A stretch of 64,000 bases of DNA from Stratiformator vulcanicus (GTDB lineage: Bacteria; Planctomycetota; Planctomycetia; Planctomycetales; Planctomycetaceae). The notes under the pieces were generated by a model. The model did no database searches and had not been told where the DNA came from. It saw only the letters and a list, made by a program, of their open reading frames with translations. The position numbers and the translations under genes were made by a program. Where the stretch lies: positions 3,456,712 through 3,520,711 of the forward strand of contig NZ_CP036268.1 of assembly GCF_007744515.1 (NCBI RefSeq). Direction: 5' to 3'. Positions 4,490 to 30,838 of this stretch are shown here, in pieces; the stretch's first letter is position 1, and every line of letters begins with the position of its first letter.

Positions 4490-4540
4490 CGCTGAATGCT
4501 CTTGCGGCTTCGCCGCCCGGACGCTGTCCGGGCCACTCCG
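4490..4540 (-). repeat. Single REP-like palindrome (family A)
   Basis: Reading the minus strand: GTGGCCCGG hairpin (GCCCGGAC/GTCCGGGC), then a GGC-GAA-GCC hairpin, then CAAGAG and CATTCAGC. It matches the halves of the paired elements at 28448-28594 and 28721-28860. Here only one half is seen. Confidence 0.7.
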
Positions 4541-4599: not shown

Positions 4600-5523
4600 T
4601 CAACTGAACTCCTCGAACAGGACGGACGCGTCGAGGCGGACCCAGGATTCGGCGACCGACTCGTCTCCTATGAGCATCGCACTGAGCATTTCGACCGAAT
4701 CGGCGAGGCTCGGGGCGGGGCGATTAAAAAACTTTTGACCGTCGGCGACGAAAACCTGATTGTCGCTGACCGCTCGCAGCTTCGACCATTCCGGTTTCTC
4801 CGCCAGGACGCCGAGTTCCCCCATCGCACGCTGTCGCGAAAAGCCGCAGGGAGCGATCAGAATCACATCCGGATCGGCGGCGAGCAGCTCGCTCCATTCG
4901 AAGGAGCGAGATTCGCTGCCGGCTTTCGAGAGCACATCCTCCGCGCCGGCGGCAGCGACGATATCGGGAATCCAATGCCCGGCGGTCATCAGCGGATCGA
5001 TCCAGTCGAGAAACACGAGCCGCTGCCGCGGACGATCGGCCGCGTCGTCGAAACAGGTGGCGACGCGCGATCGCAGATCGGCCGCCAACTCACGGCCCCG
5101 CTCCGCGACGCCGAGATGCTCGGCGACCTCTTCGATTTCCTCCCACACCCCGGCCAGTCGCGATGCGCAAAACGCAAAGACGTCGGGCTGCGGATCGAAC
5201 TGCCGAATCGCCGCCTCAACCAGTGACGGACCCGCTGCGCACAGGTCACATACCCCCTGCGTGAGAATGACGTCGGGCCGCAGCGAGGCGAGCGTGGCCT
5301 CATTGATTCGATACACCGACGTCTCACCGGCGGCCCGCACCTGCTCATCAATCGCTCTGCTGCTCGCCTCGACGTCAATCGAGACGCTGGTGCATTCGGG
5401 AAGGTGCATCACCTCCGGCTGGTCACAGGAGTGCGAACGACCGACGAGTTGGTGACCCAGACCGAGGTCACACACGATCTCCGTCGCCGAGGGGATAAGC
5501 GAAACGATCCGCGGCTCAGGCAT
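4600..5523 (-). CDS. BtuF-like corrinoid-binding protein (no signal peptide)
   Basis: A 307-residue protein of the periplasmic-binding-protein fold (COG0614, BtuF/FhuD class III). The N-terminus RIVSLIPSATEIVCDLGLG is the typical BtuF opening strand-helix. An IRPDVILTQ-type strand (residues about 80-90), a long backbone helix and a second lobe with the conserved WIPDIVAAAGA segment follow. Characterised family members bind cobalamin and deliver it to an ABC importer. Unusually, no signal peptide or lipobox is visible. The start overlaps the stop of the DUF6580 gene by eight bases, and a cobalamin riboswitch leads the operon, which supports a corrinoid ligand. No BtuC/BtuD genes are nearby. 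Confidence 0.85.
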   Translation of the reverse strand: MPEPRIVSLIPSATEIVCDLGLGHQLVGRSHSCDQPEVMHLPECTSVSIDVEASSRAIDEQVRAAGETSVYRINEATLASLRPDVILTQGVCDLCAAGPSLVEAAIRQFDPQPDVFAFCASRLAGVWEEIEEVAEHLGVAERGRELAADLRSRVATCFDDAADRPRQRLVFLDWIDPLMTAGHWIPDIVAAAGAEDVLSKAGSESRSFEWSELLAADPDVILIAPCGFSRQRAMGELGVLAEKPEWSKLRAVSDNQVFVADGQKFFNRPAPSLADSVEMLSAMLIGDESVAESWVRLDASVLFEEFS

Positions 5524-7465: not shown

Positions 7466-7569
7466 AAGTCGATTCAACACATGCCCGGCGGCTTACGCCC
7501 GGGCTGGCGTGAGAATTTATCTGCCGTCACGTGGCTTCGTCCGATCCCCGACGGACGTTGCTCAATCCG

Positions 7570-7785
7570 GCTCACAGGCAGGTCTTCCGACTTCCGGACA
7601 GTCACACCCGCGGCCTTCCCACACGATCGACGACATCGTCGATATTCCGGCACAAGAGGCGGCCGGCGCGCAGTGGCGTGTTCGCGAATGTATCTCCGAT
7701 TACGGCGGCGGGTCCGCGACGGATTCTCACCGTCTTCCCTATTCTCTCCAACCGCAACAAGCGATGGAGCACCTGGGCCGAGAGT
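7570..7785 (-). promoter_or_regulatory. Cobalamin (B12) riboswitch
   Basis: Read on the minus strand, the class hallmarks appear in order: AGGTGCTCC opening near 7770; GGGAAGACGGTGAGAATCC (the GGGAA and GGTGnnAATCC core); GGACCCGCCGCCGTAATC; GCCACTG; GGGAAGGCCGCGGG; then the B12 box with GTCGGAAGACCTGCC at about 7590-7576. A GC hairpin (GCCCGG/CCGGGC) about 70 bases further on may be part of the expression platform. The first gene downstream is the DUF1559 gene at 7265. Corrinoid binding normally turns such leaders off. Confidence 0.92.
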
Positions 7786-7822
7786 TACGGTAACGCTTTC
7801 GAGGACATGATCAAGCGTCGGT

Positions 7823-13971: not shown

Positions 13972-14492
13972 GACGATTCCCTCCGTGGGTCAGGCCCGCA
14001 GGTTTCCGTCGTGCGCGAACGGTCCGCGCTCCAATGACGGTCCTGCGCCGCATGAAACGACGATGGCCCCGCCTTCCTATCGGCAGTCAATCGAAGCGGT
14101 CATAACAAGAAACACGATTCGCACAGATGACGGGGCGAAAGCACGCCGATCCACCACGAACTGGTCCGCCAGCGAAGCGATTTCATTCGCGCCGCAAGGT
14201 CGGAACGTCGAGCGCGAAGGGTCGCGATTTCGTCGGGCGGGCTATGCCCGCCAGCGATCGCGAGAAGCGAGAAGCGAGAAGCGAGAAGCGGGAAGCAGGA
14301 AGCGGGAAGCGAGAAGCGGGAAGTCAGAAGACAGGAGACAGGAGCGTCCCTCCGTCATCTATCTAACTTTCAACTCTAGACCCTGCGGACACAGCCCGCC
14401 CTACTGTTTCGCTTCTCGTTTTTCGCTTCTCGCTTCTCGTTTTTCGCTTCTCGCTTCTCGCTTCTCGGTCCTCGCTCCTCGCTCCTCGCTCC
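13972..14492. repeat. Non-coding region with inverted 7-mer repeats
   Basis: No gene is seen. Positions about 14263-14340 hold tandem GAAGCGA/GAAGCGG units and 14405-14495 hold the complementary GCTTCTC and CTCGCTC units, so transcripts could fold into one long irregular hairpin. Between and beside them are GGGCGGGCTATGCCCGCC-type short palindromes. The frames that cross this region are repeat-encoded and not credible. Confidence 0.7.
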
Positions 14493-14801
14493 TCAAGAGA
14501 GCTCGACAAATACGTCATCGCCTTCAACCGTCACTTCGAATCGTTGCTGTTCGATGTTCGGCGTCAAACAGTGTCGGCCGGTCGTCACGTCGAATTGCCA
14601 CCCGTGCCAGGGACACGTGATCCGCGTCCCCATCAGATGCCCCTTGCCGAGCGGACCGCCGGCGTGGGGGCAAACTCCGTCGAGCGCGAAGAATTTTCCG
14701 TCGACGTTATAGATCGCCACGATCCGGTCATCGACAACAAACTCCCCCGCCTTCCCCGGCGGCACATCTTCAATGGCACACACCCGCTGTCGCTCGCTCA
14801 T
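14493..14801 (-). CDS. Rieske-type [2Fe-2S] ferredoxin
   Basis: A 102-residue soluble protein from the ATG at 14801 (GGGAG Shine-Dalgarno three bases upstream); longer starts lack support. The Rieske cluster ligands are C44/H46 (CPHAGG) and C63/H66 (CPWHGW). The short single-domain form without a membrane anchor matches NirD/BphF-type electron-transfer ferredoxins or small Rieske subunits. It would pass electrons to an oxygenase or reductase partner. No such partner is adjacent, so the pathway is open. Confidence 0.92.
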   Translation of the reverse strand: MSERQRVCAIEDVPPGKAGEFVVDDRIVAIYNVDGKFFALDGVCPHAGGPLGKGHLMGTRITCPWHGWQFDVTTGRHCLTPNIEQQRFEVTVEGDDVFVELS

Positions 14802-15787: not shown

Positions 15788-15975
15788 GGGTAGCACGGCC
15801 CAAACGGGCCGTGTCGCGCAAGCGACAAGAGGCGATCAATCACATAGCCTGAATTCAGTGATCATTGCCGAATGACAAGCCAATCACCGACTACGTAATC
15901 TCGATTGCGATCGAAACTCAACTCTGCATCGCCTCGTGTGCCTGATGGCACCCGGCCCGATGGGCCGGGCTACCC
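15788..15975. repeat. REPIN-like paired inverted palindrome (family A, pair 1)
   Basis: The left half starts GGGTAGCACGGCC, has a GGCC..GGCC hairpin, then TCGC-GCAA-GCGA and CAAGAGGCGAT. The right half is the inverted counterpart (ATCGCCTCGTG, then CCCGGCC..GGCCGGG, then CTACCC). About 90 unrelated bases lie between. Confidence 0.7.
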
Positions 15976-16107: not shown

Positions 16108-16139
16108 TGTTTTTCTTTGGCACCTCTCAGGTCTTAAAG

Positions 16140-16275
16140 CCGCGCCCGGCAGGAAGCGGATCAGGGACGAGCCGCCATCGGTGCAATGGAGAGAGCAGCC
16201 GCCAGATGATCCGCTCCTTACCAGTCGCGGCTGCTTCGCGGCGCCGCCCGGTTCTATGGGAACCGGGCCACCCGA
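16140..16275. repeat. Composite inverted repeat ending in a family A half
   Basis: The arms CGGCAGGAAGCGGATCA and TGATCCGCTCCTTACC are inverted. The right end adds a family A half (CCCGGTTC..GAACCGGGCCACCC, 16248-16273). A related arm (CTGATCCGCTCCTTACCAGT) recurs at 17641-17660. Confidence 0.55.
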
Positions 16276-22162: not shown

Positions 22163-22241
22163 GGCGGCTTCGACAACGTAAGGCAGGGGATCGACCGCGG
22201 AGATTACCAATCGTCGCCGATGCCTTCCACCACGGCATCGC

Positions 22242-22291
22242 GTTTAGCCGCGACCGCGAGGAAGCGCGCTCCCTCGCGGTCGCGGCTAAAC
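22242..22291. repeat. Family B hairpin, GTTTAGCCGCGACCG type
   Basis: A near-perfect 20-bp stem (GTTTAGCCGCGACCGCGAGG with its complement) and a loop AAGCGCGCT. The same hairpin recurs at 26497-26546, and a half copy lies at 39262-39296. Placed between the CPBP protease stop and tyrS start, it could also act as an RNA 3'-end structure. Confidence 0.75.
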
Positions 22292-22303
22292 GGTGAGAGC
22301 GAA

Positions 22304-26043: not shown

Positions 26044-26502
26044 ATGGACGCTCATCACGGCGGAGTAACCTCGCCGGACGGCAACAATCTCGACAGCAGC
26101 AAAGCGGAGCTTCCGGCGTCATTCCTCGAACTGGCCGCGTCGCGACGGCAGTGGATCGATGAAACACTCGCCCCCTGGTGCCGATCGGCATCGCGAACCG
26201 AGTTGGTCAAGGCGGAGGCGGAATGGACCAATCTTGCCGGTCGCGTCGACCCTCGGGGCACCTTGTGGAAGTGGGCGTGGGGCCGATTCCCGGCATTGGT
26301 GGAAGAGCAACTCGGCGAAATCGATGAAACTCACGAGGTTCGCGTGACTCGTTGCGATGGCTCCTACGTGACCGGATACCCCGACGCCCGCCGTAGCGAA
26401 CACGGGCGTTTGGCGATCATCTCCACCGCAGAGGATGACGCCGACCCGATTTCGATCGATGAAATCGCAAGCGTCGAACGCGCGTTGTCGCCGCACGTTT
26501 AG
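26044..26502 (+). CDS. Hypothetical protein, unknown function
   Basis: A 152-residue acidic cytoplasmic protein. An N-terminal helical region (SFLELAASRRQWIDETLAPW, residues about 26-45) is followed by a WKWAWGRFPALVEEQL segment and a beta-rich C-terminus (VRVTRCDGSYVTGYP, LAIISTAEDDADPISI) that resembles small Sm-like or SH3-like barrels. No known family is recognised. Its TAG stop lies inside the family B hairpin at 26497-26546, so the repeat supplies the last codons. Confidence 0.65.
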   Translation: MDAHHGGVTSPDGNNLDSSKAELPASFLELAASRRQWIDETLAPWCRSASRTELVKAEAEWTNLAGRVDPRGTLWKWAWGRFPALVEEQLGEIDETHEVRVTRCDGSYVTGYPDARRSEHGRLAIISTAEDDADPISIDEIASVERALSPHV

Positions 26503-26546
26503 CCGCGACCGACAGGAAGCGCGCTCCCAATCGGTCGCGGCTAAAC
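26497..26546. repeat. Family B hairpin overlapping a stop codon
   Basis: GTTTAGCCGCGACCG, a variable AGGAAGCGCGCTCCC loop region, then CGGTCGCGGCTAAAC. Near-identical to 22242-22291. The upstream gene terminates at the TAG within its left arm. Confidence 0.75.
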
Positions 26547-26557
26547 GGGGATGAAAT

Positions 26558-27994
26558 TTATCTTCGCTTCGGCGAGGGTCGCGTCGTGGGGGAGCGACGA
26601 CTCTTGACCGGGCGGGCGGCGTTGCCGCGATCCGTGGAGTACTTCTCCTCCGATTGCTCGGCGTCACGGGCTCGGAGAATCAGCTTGACCGGCACCTCAT
26701 CGAACGGGAATGCATCGCGAAGTTTCCCCATCAAGTAACGCGTCCAACTGTCGGTGAACAATTTCGGATCATTGCACTTGAGCACGATAGTGGGCGGCTC
26801 GGTCGAAACCTGCGTCGCGAAGAAAATTTTGGGGCGCCGATTCTTTTTCATCGGCGGAGGCTGGCGGTCGATCGCATCGCGGACGATCGAATTGAGTTTT
26901 CCCGTCGAGACCCGCACCCGCGCCTGCTTGAAGATCGACTGGGCGAGATTAATCACCGGCCGAACATTGCGGCCCTCCTGAGCCGTCACAAACGCAACCG
27001 GCATGAACGACAGGGTCGGGAAGGTGCGACCGATGTAAGCCGTCCACTTCTCGGTCGTCATTTCCTCGCCGGTTCCCAAGTCCCACTTATTGATCACGAA
27101 GATGCAAGGCTTGTAGTACCGGCCGATCTCTTCGATCAGATTCTTGTCGACCTTTGAAATGGTCTCGGTCGCGCTGAGAAACATCAGCACGACGTCGGCC
27201 CGGCGAATGCTCTTTTGGGCGCGGACGAGGCTGTAGAACTCGATGTCGCCCTCGAGGCTCTTTTTGCGCCGCACGCCGGGGGTATCGATCGCAATGAACG
27301 ACCGGCCGTCGCCTTCGAACCGCACATCAATGCTGTCGCGGGTGGTGCCGGCGACCTCGCTCACGATGACGCGTTCTTCTTCGGCGATCGCGTTGATGAA
27401 CGTGCTCTTACCAACGTTGCGGCGTCCCACGATCGCGAGCTTCATCTCCGGCTCGGTAATCTGGGCTTCGCCGAAAGTCGCTTCATCCTCGGCCGCCGGG
27501 GGCAACGCCTTGACGATCGCCGCGAACAGGCCACTGCGATTCTCGTTACCTTTGACGCTCGTCAGCACGACCGGTGCATCGGCCAAACCGAGGAACTCGG
27601 CCTGTTCCATCGCGTATTTCGCCGAATCGCATTTATTGATCACGAGAATTTTCGGGATGTCGCGACCGCGCAGCAGCTTCGCGACTTCATCGTCGTGCGG
27701 CAATTTTCCCGTCCGCGCATCGACCACGAACAGGATCACATCGGCCTGTTCGATGCCGTAGCGAATCTGCTTTTCGATATCGGCTTCTAGTTCGTCACTG
27801 TCGATAATCCCGATACCGCCGGTGTCGACGATCTCAAAGTAGCGGCCCTTCTCCCGACAGATGTAAGTCAAGCGATCGCGCGTGACTCCCGCGGTCGGAT
27901 CAACGATCGAAATCAACCGGCCGGCCAGCCAGTTAAAGATCGAACTCTTGCCGACATTCGGACGGCCGACGATCGCAACACGGGGGAGAGGCAT
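26558..27994 (-). CDS. der: Ribosome-assembly GTPase Der (EngA)
   Basis: A 478-residue protein with two tandem Era-like GTPase domains. G1 motifs are GRPNVGKSS at 10-18 and GRRNVGKST near 190. G3 appears as DTGG and DTPGV, and both NKCD and NKWD G4 motifs are present. The C-terminal KH-like domain follows (KLRDAFPFDEVPVKLILRAR) with a lysine/arginine-rich tail. Der acts in late 50S subunit maturation. A small gene (28046-28312) lies 51 bases upstream on the same strand and may be co-transcribed. Confidence 0.96.
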   Translation of the reverse strand: MPLPRVAIVGRPNVGKSSIFNWLAGRLISIVDPTAGVTRDRLTYICREKGRYFEIVDTGGIGIIDSDELEADIEKQIRYGIEQADVILFVVDARTGKLPHDDEVAKLLRGRDIPKILVINKCDSAKYAMEQAEFLGLADAPVVLTSVKGNENRSGLFAAIVKALPPAAEDEATFGEAQITEPEMKLAIVGRRNVGKSTFINAIAEEERVIVSEVAGTTRDSIDVRFEGDGRSFIAIDTPGVRRKKSLEGDIEFYSLVRAQKSIRRADVVLMFLSATETISKVDKNLIEEIGRYYKPCIFVINKWDLGTGEEMTTEKWTAYIGRTFPTLSFMPVAFVTAQEGRNVRPVINLAQSIFKQARVRVSTGKLNSIVRDAIDRQPPPMKKNRRPKIFFATQVSTEPPTIVLKCNDPKLFTDSWTRYLMGKLRDAFPFDEVPVKLILRARDAEQSEEKYSTDRGNAARPVKSRRSPTTRPSPKRR

Positions 27995-28312: not shown

Positions 28313-28447
28313 GGCAGAACCTCCTCTGATCGATCGCCTTTACGCGGAGCCGTTAGCAAGGATGGAATCCTATTCCGCCAGCAGGAAAATAACACGCCTC
28401 TCTCGGCTTGGTTATGGTCAGGACGGGATCGAGAACTCGAAAAACAT

Positions 28448-28594
28448 GGGTGGCCCGGACCCTACAGGTCCGGGTCGCGAAGCGACAAGAGGTCTTGGGG
28501 CGGTGTTGACAATCCAGCGCCGACAACGACTTTGGAGTCGGTTCCCAGACCTCTTGCGGCTGCGCCGCCCGGTTCTGTAGGAACCGGGCCACCC
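28448..28594. repeat. REPIN-like paired inverted palindrome (family A, pair 2)
   Basis: The left half is GGGTGGCCCGGACC..GGTCCGGG, then TCGC-GAA-GCGA, then CAAGAGGTCT. The right half is the inverted form AGACCTCTTG, CGGC-TGC-GCCG, CCCGGTTC..GAACCGGGCCACCC. About 45 bases lie between. This is the clearest example of the family. Confidence 0.85.
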
Positions 28595-28720
28595 GCAAAT
28601 GTCCAATTCGCGCGCGAGTTCGAGTCGCGATTCGGTATCTTTCTCTCCGACCTCAAGCCGGGCAATATCGAATTCGCGAGTGACCCGTCATAATAGCGAT
28701 ATGGCGAGTAAGTAATGTGT

Positions 28721-28860
28721 GTGGCCCGGACATCGTCCGGGCGGCGCAGCCGCAAGAGCATTCAGCTACTGACCTCAGAAAACGATTCCGGCCACGTTCC
28801 TCTGCGAATTTGCAGCTGAATACTCTTGTCGCGATGCGACCCGGACGGTGTCCGGGCCAC
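28721..28860. repeat. REPIN-like paired inverted palindrome (family A, pair 3)
   Basis: The left half is GTGGCCCGGACATCGTCCGG, then GGC-GCA-GCC, then CAAGAGCATTCAGCT. The right half is its inverted counterpart AGCTGAATACTCTTG, GTCGCGATGCGAC, CCGGACGGTGTCCGGGCCAC. It lies 126 bases after pair 2, just upstream of hpnC. Confidence 0.85.
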
Positions 28861-28927
28861 TCCTATTCTGAAATTGCGATTGAAAAATTGATCCGGCAAA
28901 ACCAAGTCGGGGATACTCGATTGTGGA

Positions 28928-29914
28928 ATGTTTCCCGAGTCGAATACGGTGGAATTTGTGACCACTTCCCCGACCCTCGTCGCCAATTCGACCTTCACCC
29001 CTCACCTCGCCGCTTGGGGTCCGGAGTCGGATCAGGTCAAGCCGTCGCGGGAAGAAGCCGAAGCCTATACGCGAACGTTGGCGCGATCGCATTACGAAAA
29101 TTTCCCGATGGCGTCGCTGCTTTTGCCCAAGAAGCTCCGGCAGCACTTCTTCAACGTTTACGCCTATTGTCGGTGGGCGGACGATCTCGGTGATGAGGTC
29201 GAAGGGACCGAAGAGTCGCTCCGGCTGCTCGACTGGTGGGAAGGCGAACTCGACGCGATGTACGATAGCGAAACCCGGCATCCGGTGTTCGTCGCCCTGC
29301 AGCGAACGGTTCAAGAATTCGGCATCCCGCGGGAACCATTTGCCGAGTTGATCTCCGCCTTCCGACAGGATCAGACGACCGCCACCTATCAAACGTTCGA
29401 CGAATTGCACGACTATTGCCGCCGCAGTGCCGATCCGGTCGGGCGACTCGTGCTGTATTTGATCGACTCGTATGACGAAGCAAACGCCGAACTTTCCGAC
29501 TCGATCTGCACGGGACTGCAACTCGTCAATTTCTGGCAGGACGTCGCGCGGGACGCGGATATCGGTCGGTGCTATCTGCCCGCCGAAGACCGCCGGCGAT
29601 TCGGTTATTCCGATGAGGATTTCGCCGAGCGGCGGACGAATGAGCCGTTCATCGAACTGATGCGATTCGAAGTTGATCGGGCTCACCGCTTCCTTGTCGC
29701 CGGCTTGCCGCTCGTCGATCGGTTGCGAGGTCGGTTTCGCGTCGATATCGAACTGTTCGCCCGGGGCGGACTGGCGATGTGCGATCGGATCGAGGCGATC
29801 GACTACCGCGTGTGGGACGTGCGACCCAAAATCTCGAAGTGGGAAGCGGCCCGGTTGGCGATGTCGGTGATCTCGCGCCGCGTGCTGTGGTCGCGGAGAC
29901 GACCCTCGAAATGA
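28928..29914 (+). CDS. hpnC: Squalene synthase HpnC (hydroxysqualene synthase-like)
   Basis: A 328-residue trans-isoprenyl diphosphate synthase. The two Asp-rich motifs are in AYCRWADDLGDEVEG (residues about 75-90) and NFWQDVARDADIGR (about 198-212). Further family helices, such as YCRRSADPVGRLVLYLI, are present. In the HpnCDE pathway HpnD makes presqualene diphosphate from two farnesyl diphosphates and HpnC converts it to hydroxysqualene. The downstream gene starts at an ATGA overlap, so the two are coupled. The ATG at 28928 has a weak Shine-Dalgarno, and GTG codons slightly downstream are alternatives. Confidence 0.92.
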   Translation: MFPESNTVEFVTTSPTLVANSTFTPHLAAWGPESDQVKPSREEAEAYTRTLARSHYENFPMASLLLPKKLRQHFFNVYAYCRWADDLGDEVEGTEESLRLLDWWEGELDAMYDSETRHPVFVALQRTVQEFGIPREPFAELISAFRQDQTTATYQTFDELHDYCRRSADPVGRLVLYLIDSYDEANAELSDSICTGLQLVNFWQDVARDADIGRCYLPAEDRRRFGYSDEDFAERRTNEPFIELMRFEVDRAHRFLVAGLPLVDRLRGRFRVDIELFARGGLAMCDRIEAIDYRVWDVRPKISKWEAARLAMSVISRRVLWSRRRPSK

Positions 29915-30808: not shown

Positions 30809-30838
30809 AAAGCCCACGGGTCGCAACCCGTGGGCTTT
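30809..30838. terminator. Bidirectional palindromic terminator between hpnD and YHS gene
   Basis: AAAGCCCACGGG-TCGCAA-CCCGTGGGCTTT, a 12-bp stem with an A-run before and TTT after, lies between two convergent stops. It differs from the trpC hairpin at two mirrored positions. Confidence 0.75.

Follow-up and report, generated by a model that had tools for sequence, protein, structure and literature searches.

Two-hairpin repeats in the planctomycete Stratiformator vulcanicus are very probably REPINs linked to RAYT transposases

Introduction

Most work on RAYTs and REPINs has been done in Proteobacteria, and how REPINs leave and enter DNA is, to our knowledge, unsolved. Already known are REPINs and RAYTs themselves, GTRG feet, several REP families in one genome, and heterodimers. 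Four papers, cited here for parts of their text, describe the closest systems (PMC3116915, PMC3733652, PMC6006769, PMC8266576). GTAG-type REPs were reported in 2013 from PVC bacteria, including R. baltica (PMC3733652). According to the same text, the spacer of some REP dimers carries a small stem-loop at one of its ends, and several A. tumefaciens CGTC-3 spacers have one at both; it describes CGTC REPs as having no dedicated transposase. Class 3 TnpA-REP enzymes occur principally in Planctomycetes, Acidobacteria, and Proteobacteria (PMC6006769). On single-stranded REPs, TnpA-REP enzymes cleave at CT on the 5' and the 3' side of the hairpin, and the Marinomonas enzyme cleaves at CA as well; when the guide was GTGG, this enzyme cleaved CC and, less efficiently, CA (PMC8266576). 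No second hairpin in the REP of the in vitro TnpA-REP systems is named in that text, and we found no biochemistry of planctomycetal RAYT enzymes in the literature.

Here we describe repeats whose halves each carry two hairpins. We consider it very probable that they are REPINs, that is, non-autonomous elements of two inverted REP halves that are moved by a RAYT (TnpA-REP, an HUH/Y1 transposase) encoded elsewhere in the genome.

Results

Repeat halves in the window

The stretch analyzed (the window) comprises 64,000 nucleotides, positions 3456712-3520711 of a genome that is a single contig of 5,228,745 bases. Eight halves that a sequence-only reading had placed in it were seen again by direct reading, and the two-hairpin covariance model R2 finds the same eight at E<=1 (E 1.5e-12 to 1.9e-4). 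The high scores are partly a product of construction because the model rows include the halves at 28448 and 28594 and relatives of the other window halves; the absence of further matches is not. The core GTGGCCCGG...CCGGG occurs six times in the window, versus 0.02 expected from dinucleotide shuffles. The eight halves had been described as one family, but their tails separate three, CAAGAGCATTCAGC in family A, CAAGAGGCGAT in family B, and CAAGAGGTCT in family C, all present in the window.

The three inverted pairs named by that reading are confirmed, with the third (given as 28721-28860) extending over 28719-28862 by R2. The first of the two neighboring pairs, a family C REPIN at 28448-28594, has an outer span of 147 nt and folds strongly as single-stranded DNA (z -7.3 for the plus and -6.3 for the minus strand). 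Its left half (28448-28492, plus strand, R2 61.4 bits) has a GGGTGG foot, hairpin 1 CCCGGACC/GGTCCGGG, hairpin 2 TCGC-GAA-GCGA, and a CAAGAGG box. The right half (28550-28594, minus strand, 58.1 bits) has hairpin 1 CCCGGTTC/GAACCGGG, hairpin 2 CGGC-GCA-GCCG, and the same CAAGAGG box. The second pair, a family A REPIN at 28719-28862 (fold z -8.5), has its cognate RAYT at genome position 5186635 (L001). It consists of a left half with a CGGC-type hairpin 2 and tail CAAGAGCATTCAGC (28719-28759, plus strand, 53.4 bits) and a right half with a TCGC-type hairpin 2 (28822-28862, minus strand, 44.4 bits). The family B REPIN at 15788-15975, with GTAG feet and a cognate RAYT at genome position 2522091 (L002), has R2-matching halves at 15788-15832 (plus strand; TCGC-type hairpin 2) and 15932-15975 (minus strand; TGCC type). 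The compensatory change of GGACC/GGTCC to GGTTC/GAACC noted earlier is real.

Two halves are single. One, of family A, lies at 4498-4538 (minus strand, 51 bits). The other, given as 16229-16273 with a diverged tail, is indeed a half, but its tail has not simply diverged: it is a shortened family C half (16234-16273, minus strand, 27.1 bits) with an intact hairpin 1, beyond which it is fused to a different palindrome with arms at 16138-16163 and 16207-16232. That palindrome (16138-16232, AGCCGCG...GGAAGCGGATCA, of related bases) abuts the half ending at 16273, and a similar junction recurs at genome position 2236289.

The neighboring REPINs are flanked on the left by der (EngA-type GTPase; 26558-27994, minus strand) and on the right by a divergent squalene/phytoene synthase family gene (28928-29914, plus strand), which we take to be hpnC-like. 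Other repeats were seen in passing. Palindromes of 52 bp (CGTTTAGCCGCGACC...) at 22241-22292 and 26496-26547, 96% and 88% self-complementary, belong to another dispersed family, the exact pattern of which occurs at five places in the genome and nowhere in 20 relatives. A terminator-like inverted repeat, AAAGCCCACGGG...CCCGTGGGCTTT, lies at 30809-30838, and near-identical stretches occur at many places in two relatives from other genera (G012, G014). The window also holds an extended series of short GAGAAGCG-type repeats, which occur in either orientation (14260-14494), and a cobalamin riboswitch (7560-7791, minus strand, 101 bits).

Copies across the genome

A scarcity of copies, which the sequence-only reading had named as evidence against REPINs, was not observed. 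The genome search with a covariance model of the halves that it proposed was run (model R1, best 150 of 3105 candidates scored) and gives at least 150 halves in 73 clusters; the pattern GTGGCMCGG...CCGKG has 139 matches in the genome versus 6 for its reversal. Sorted by stem, 248 GTNG stem-loops from the examined regions fall into families A (82), B (15), C (33), D (27), and E plus F (16), with 75 unsorted and mostly plainly unrelated; sorting used short patterns, and a few halves may be misfiled. Among the best 150 halves, there are 45 inverted pairs with GTRG outside within 220 nt, 10 adjacent pairs with GTRG inside, and 12 same-strand neighbors, and 60 halves are unpaired. Start-to-start spacing is 103-107 nt in 30 of the 45 pairs. 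Outer spans range over 135-191 nt, with 140 nt in 23 of 30 family A pairs.

The copies are embedded in unrelated sequence and have a sharply defined end in common, as indicated by the low information of their flanks outside the last bases. Upstream of 66 family A halves (all with distinct last 12 bases, some being array copies) information stays at 0.0-0.4 bits per position up to the two bases next to the foot; families B, C, and D show a rise at the third base too (0.4, 0.6, and 0.8), and isolated further columns attain 0.8 bits in family B, which is small. Conservation thus ends 2-3 nt outside the GTRG foot. At the best offsets, the 45 pairs show no target duplication of 5 nt or more, one of 4 nt (0.38 expected), and two of 3 nt (0.98 expected). 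Short elements with inverted ends in many copies would also be expected of MITEs moved by a DDE transposase via terminal inverted repeats; the lack of target duplications above chance, the two hairpins in each half, and the HUH genes alongside leave that origin next to no probability.

Halves lie within ORFs of at least 200 aa in 32 of 151 cases, whereas such ORFs, which are mechanical rather than called genes, cover 0.58 of the loci concerned and 0.80 of the whole window. This preference for sites outside long ORFs, together with the strong predicted folds and the report of frequent REP transcription and a possible role of the RNA (PMC3733652), would suit static structured regulatory elements (transcribed hairpins such as terminators, attenuators, or mRNA stabilizers) copied by selection or duplication rather than by a transposase. 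However, the pair at 28448-28862 lies between divergent genes, and the region 28330-28930 contains no terminator-like site (GC stem plus T run) and no Rfam match at the gathering score. Copy flanks are unrelated up to a sharp boundary, and halves flank RAYT genes. We therefore regard a purely static origin as very improbable and keep to REPINs, which may later have been put to regulatory use.

Family A REPINs and family D halves also occur together in composite arrays, at genome positions (G000) 278320-278747, 1715067-1715950, 2102521-2103111, 3905534-3906034, 4294977-4295860, and 5163371-5163863. They are partly near-identical and occur in both orientations, so a larger unit seems, from the sequence, to have been copied. 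The arrays are tandem and recombined, and no clean empty sites were seen for copies nested in other repeats. Palindromes with a GTRG foot on both sides (843010-843039 and 3905534-3905561) look as if a family D REPIN had lost its middle.

Orthologous sites in relatives

Matches to der and the synthase lie side by side in 5 of 18 genomes of the same family (G002, G003, G007, G009, and G017). R2 finds nothing at the der-hpnC site in any of the five at E<=1. Restriction of the copies to orthologous positions, which had been named as another outcome telling against mobility, is thus not observed. The distance from the der start to synthase codon 26 or 27 is 129-495 bases in these relatives versus 1009 here; they are shorter by more than the elements alone, and the comparison is made at genus-level distance. 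Loss of the elements in all five is a conceivable, if less likely, alternative to original absence. For the surroundings of 4498-4538 and 15788-15975, matches in 10 relatives covered one flank or gave no clear neighbor pair.

Anatomy of a half

Each half consists of a G-N-GTRG foot, hairpin 1 (7-12 bp, family specific), an abutting hairpin 2 (4-5 bp), the box CAAGA[G/T], and a family-specific tail. The hairpin 2 loop is mostly 3-4 nt and mostly a GNA triloop (GCA in 61, GAA in 16, GACA in 11, and GTA in 10 halves). The foot is GTGG or GTAG in 142 of 143 distinct halves (112 GTGG, 30 GTAG), partly by construction because the search required GTNG; the GTRG foot is also conserved across genomes (A5).

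Both hairpins are supported by covariation among 22 halves, 8 from the families of this genome and 14 from eight other loci. They were chosen by a scan requiring both hairpins or by eye, which favors pairing but not double changes. Paired cells make up 98.8%, versus 27-43% with the partner slid by 1-3 columns, and the covariation score is 0.678 versus at most 0.090. Changes on both sides were found in six of eight hairpin 1 pairs and three of four hairpin 2 pairs. The second hairpin, which precedes the CAAGA box, is the unusual part of the half and is maintained throughout Planctomycetota by compensatory substitutions. Of the 143 distinct halves in this genome, 118 have a hairpin 2 that matches one of three consensus types, 18 have a variant, and 7 have no hairpin 2. 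The 18 variants include 4 compensated pairs, 11 G-T pairs, and 15 broken pairs; two of the compensated pairs are clear (237476 and 1690249), and the other two lie in rearranged halves. Of 136 halves, 119 have a CA step directly at the 3' foot of hairpin 2 or offset from it by one base, and 17 lack it.

Different second hairpins in the two arms

Hairpin 2 types differ between the arms in all 36 pairs of this genome that could be typed on both. These combine CGGC with TCGC (23 in family A, 6 in C), CGGC with TTGC (1 in C), or TCGC with TGCC (4 in B, 2 in D). The 36 pairs share ancestors and are not 36 independent events, and the four families agree. A further 11 of the 47 pairs, among them two double-foot palindromes, could not be typed on at least one arm. 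Four dispersed pairs in other genomes differ too (L143, L146 at 5274-5482, L228, and L232). Where a half lies on each side of a RAYT gene, the types are the same at four loci (L003, which is in this genome, L142, L149, and L121) and different at two (L145 and L146). The rule thus holds for REPINs and not for RAYT-bracketing halves.

One interpretation is that hairpin 2 is a by-product that the RAYT does not read and that serves only to prevent a perfect long palindrome, which nucleases could remove. The 36 heterotypic pairs would then be explained, heterodimers are discussed in that light in the text of PMC3733652, and a mere spoiler would allow the matching types of far-apart halves at four of the six RAYT loci. 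However, a spoiler would not have to form a hairpin, whereas here base pairing persists across genomes through two-sided changes, and the CAAGA box persists too. We hold this interpretation to be a serious possibility that is nonetheless on the unlikely side.

RAYT transposases of the genome

The HUH gene bordered by the same palindromes that the earlier reading had suggested looking for was found several times over. The genome has 11 Y1_Tnp matches and seven genes above the cut-off of the RAYT model NF047646; three of the seven are flanked by halves of families A, B, and D. Among six proteins scanned, five, including A, B, and D, score 89.5-101.3 bits (cut-off, 80); the sixth, from a class-3-like gene (L005), has no NF047646 match. 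RAYT A (5186635), RAYT B (2522091), and RAYT D (3779598) are each flanked by two-hairpin halves of their own family. B and D are 49% and 45% identical to A, and all three genes are open and encode the catalytic residues. Both histidines of the HUH motif and the tyrosine are invariant in the ten rows of A6. The best match among solved structures is 4er8, a RAYT with a REP hairpin, by sequence (2.2e-7) and by fold (2.1e-9; RAYT A model, pLDDT 91.9); we take this to be the E. coli enzyme.

Together, the copy number, the RAYT genes with the same halves alongside, and the empty orthologous site bear out the REPIN architecture proposed from the letters. That proposal had also placed RAYT mobilization in other phyla. 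The tie to RAYTs holds for A, B, and D, but GTAG REPs had already been reported in planctomycetes (PMC3733652), and no RAYT was found for family C among the matches in this genome. Family C is an orphan that has either lost its own RAYT or depends on another.

The RAYTs at 1104291 (E) and 2963225 (F) accompany single-hairpin REP families, and no convincing GTRG hairpin lies alongside those at 3395285 and 4716605; R2 has no match beside any of these four. The RAYTs with single-hairpin REP families of their own (GTGGCTGGGG and GTGGCGGGGCTG) are those of L010 and L008/L226. The R2 matches in L226 and at one end of L008 belong to a family A REPIN more than 1 kb from the gene. Five short Y1_Tnp genes (L004, L005, L006, L007, and L009) have an NH-[FVIA]-H motif and a YV...Q-type tyrosine region. 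The NCBIfam IS200 model NF033573 reaches at most 32.9 bits against a cut-off of 55, and nothing here qualifies as a multi-copy autonomous IS200/IS605 element.

The seven RAYTs all differ, and no two of them are near-identical. In the RAYT tree, A, B, and D fall on separate twigs (A with L142, 96/83; B with L147, 96/71; D with L143/L144, 92/80) and so look like old separate lineages rather than recent copies. Such differences might mean that spread is over, the RAYTs having been domesticated for another function and the present copies being decaying remnants. The orphan family C, the mean identity of 0.79-0.89 within half types, and the 60 unpaired halves among the 150 best scored point the same way, but hairpin 2 is at consensus in 118 of 143 distinct halves and the genes for RAYTs A, B, and D are open with catalytic residues. 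We think it unlikely that spread has ended, and infer that the REPINs are probably still mobile.

Linkage of halves and RAYTs across genomes

The nine RAYTs nearest in sequence are all from Planctomycetota (L142-L150, 43-54% identity). R2 matches occur in all nine of these genomes (from at least 4 to at least 122, among the best 150 candidates of each) and in none of 21 chosen genomes with a more distant RAYT, taken from the 71 other loci. R2 was trained on halves from this genome and, for seven of the nine positives, on RAYT-adjacent halves and hardly on dispersed copies; L147 and L148, outside the training set, have at least four matches each. At the 71 other RAYT loci, mostly from Acidobacteriota, neither the script scan nor the model found similar halves. 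R1 matches were found in 7 of 29 relatives besides this genome.

In an even sample of 149 genomes of the phylum, and with stricter filters, 11 carry R2 matches. An A4-like RAYT (E 1e-10) is present in 9 of the 11 carriers versus 40 of 138 non-carriers (p 8e-4), and all five genomes with a match of at least 178 bits are carriers (p 8e-7). One sampled genome, G158, appears to be that of L147 (same match place). Two carriers, G103 (79% complete) and G153, have two-hairpin halves and no A4-like RAYT at E 1e-10. G001, one of the seven relatives with R1 matches, has dispersed two-hairpin halves with other stems, and its best RAYT, L112, lies on another branch with no R2 match alongside.

On a tree of 68 RAYTs, the 17 with an R2 match within 700 nt fall into two groups, one of 14 that includes A, B, and D and another, apart from it, of 3 (L118, L121, and L122). 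Fitting the trait to this tree takes 3 changes, where shuffled labels average 15.4, and the branches with support already demand at least 2. Counting L139, with its two weak matches (E 0.003), gives 4. An earlier labeling from the script scan, with 7 changes, was discarded, having missed halves at L122, L126, L148, L241, and L242 that the model found. As read from these sequences, a single origin of the two-hairpin trait is not supported; with two RAYT groups carrying R2 matches, it may have moved, arisen twice, or often been lost. At L121 (1227-3015), a RAYT of a different branch is embedded in an array of two-hairpin halves.

Discussion

A proposed route of movement

By analogy with TnpA-REP enzymes and IS608, the most likely course is that a half folds when its strand is single, as on the lagging-strand template. 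The RAYT would then bind the folded half and its GTRG guide, cut at a CA (or CC) step such as that at the 3' foot of hairpin 2, and have the unit joined elsewhere without target duplication. Given the cutting of CA and CC under a GTGG guide (PMC8266576), the GTRG guides, and the CA at the foot, the predicted cut site may serve enzymes with either form of the guide.

Hairpin 2 may itself be contacted by the RAYT. We tentatively suggest a two-part address in which hairpin 1 would specify the family and hairpin 2, with the CA/CAAGA foot, would act as a second recognition and cutting module; the differing hairpin 2 codes could let the enzyme tell the ends apart, left from right as in IS608. As a whole this scheme is speculative and we consider it rather improbable.

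The pairs of RAYT and REP are found phylum-wide, the two REP modules vary independently, and several pairs coexist in one genome. They provide natural mutants for asking which portion of the REP determines specificity and at what position cleavage takes place, and the orphan family C offers a test case for cross-mobilization.

Comparison with known systems

The system differs from IS200/IS605 elements such as IS608 and ISDra2, with which it shares the HUH Y1 fold and hairpin ends with a 5' guide (PMC8266576): here the ends are inverted halves, the RAYTs are all different, and the IS200 model stays below its cut-off. It resembles the TnpA-REP systems of E. coli, S. maltophilia, and Marinomonas in fold (4er8) and in the GTRG guide (PMC8266576). 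As in the GT[AG]G REPtrons of PMC6006769, a Y1 gene is flanked by GT[AG]G REPs within 1 kb. In the guide-contact region, RAYTs B and D have WQ, as in that text, and RAYT A has WT; the motifs [ND]H[VA]H and Y[IM]H[DL]NP have no exact match in its rows 2.1-2.8 and 3. The five short Y1_Tnp genes resemble its class 3. Its REP types are short, long, bulged, and double foot, whereas here there are two hairpins.

Like the REPINs of P. fluorescens SBW25 (PMC3116915), the elements are inverted extragenic REP doublets in many copies, and families A, B, and D each lie near their own RAYT, as the three SBW25 families do. The differences are a second hairpin adjoining the first and a CAAGA box in each half, outer spans of 135-191 nt versus 71 bp between the 16-mers of SBW25 GI, and a fourth family for which we could find no RAYT. 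The GTAG REPs of PVC bacteria (PMC3733652) share the GTAG/GTGG foot, the stem-loop, head-head dimers, several families per genome, and a planctomycete host, but have one stem-loop per unit in that text, the R. baltica comparison resting on its description in words, versus two here. The nearest precedent for the second hairpin is the pair of spacer stem-loops of A. tumefaciens CGTC-3 in the same text.

A two-hairpin GTRG half was not met in the text of these four papers, figures and supplements aside, or in literature searches. What appears to be new is a half that combines two hairpins with a CAAGA box and that, along with its RAYT clade, is conserved throughout the phylum. The set adds a well-developed RAYT/REPIN system outside Proteobacteria.
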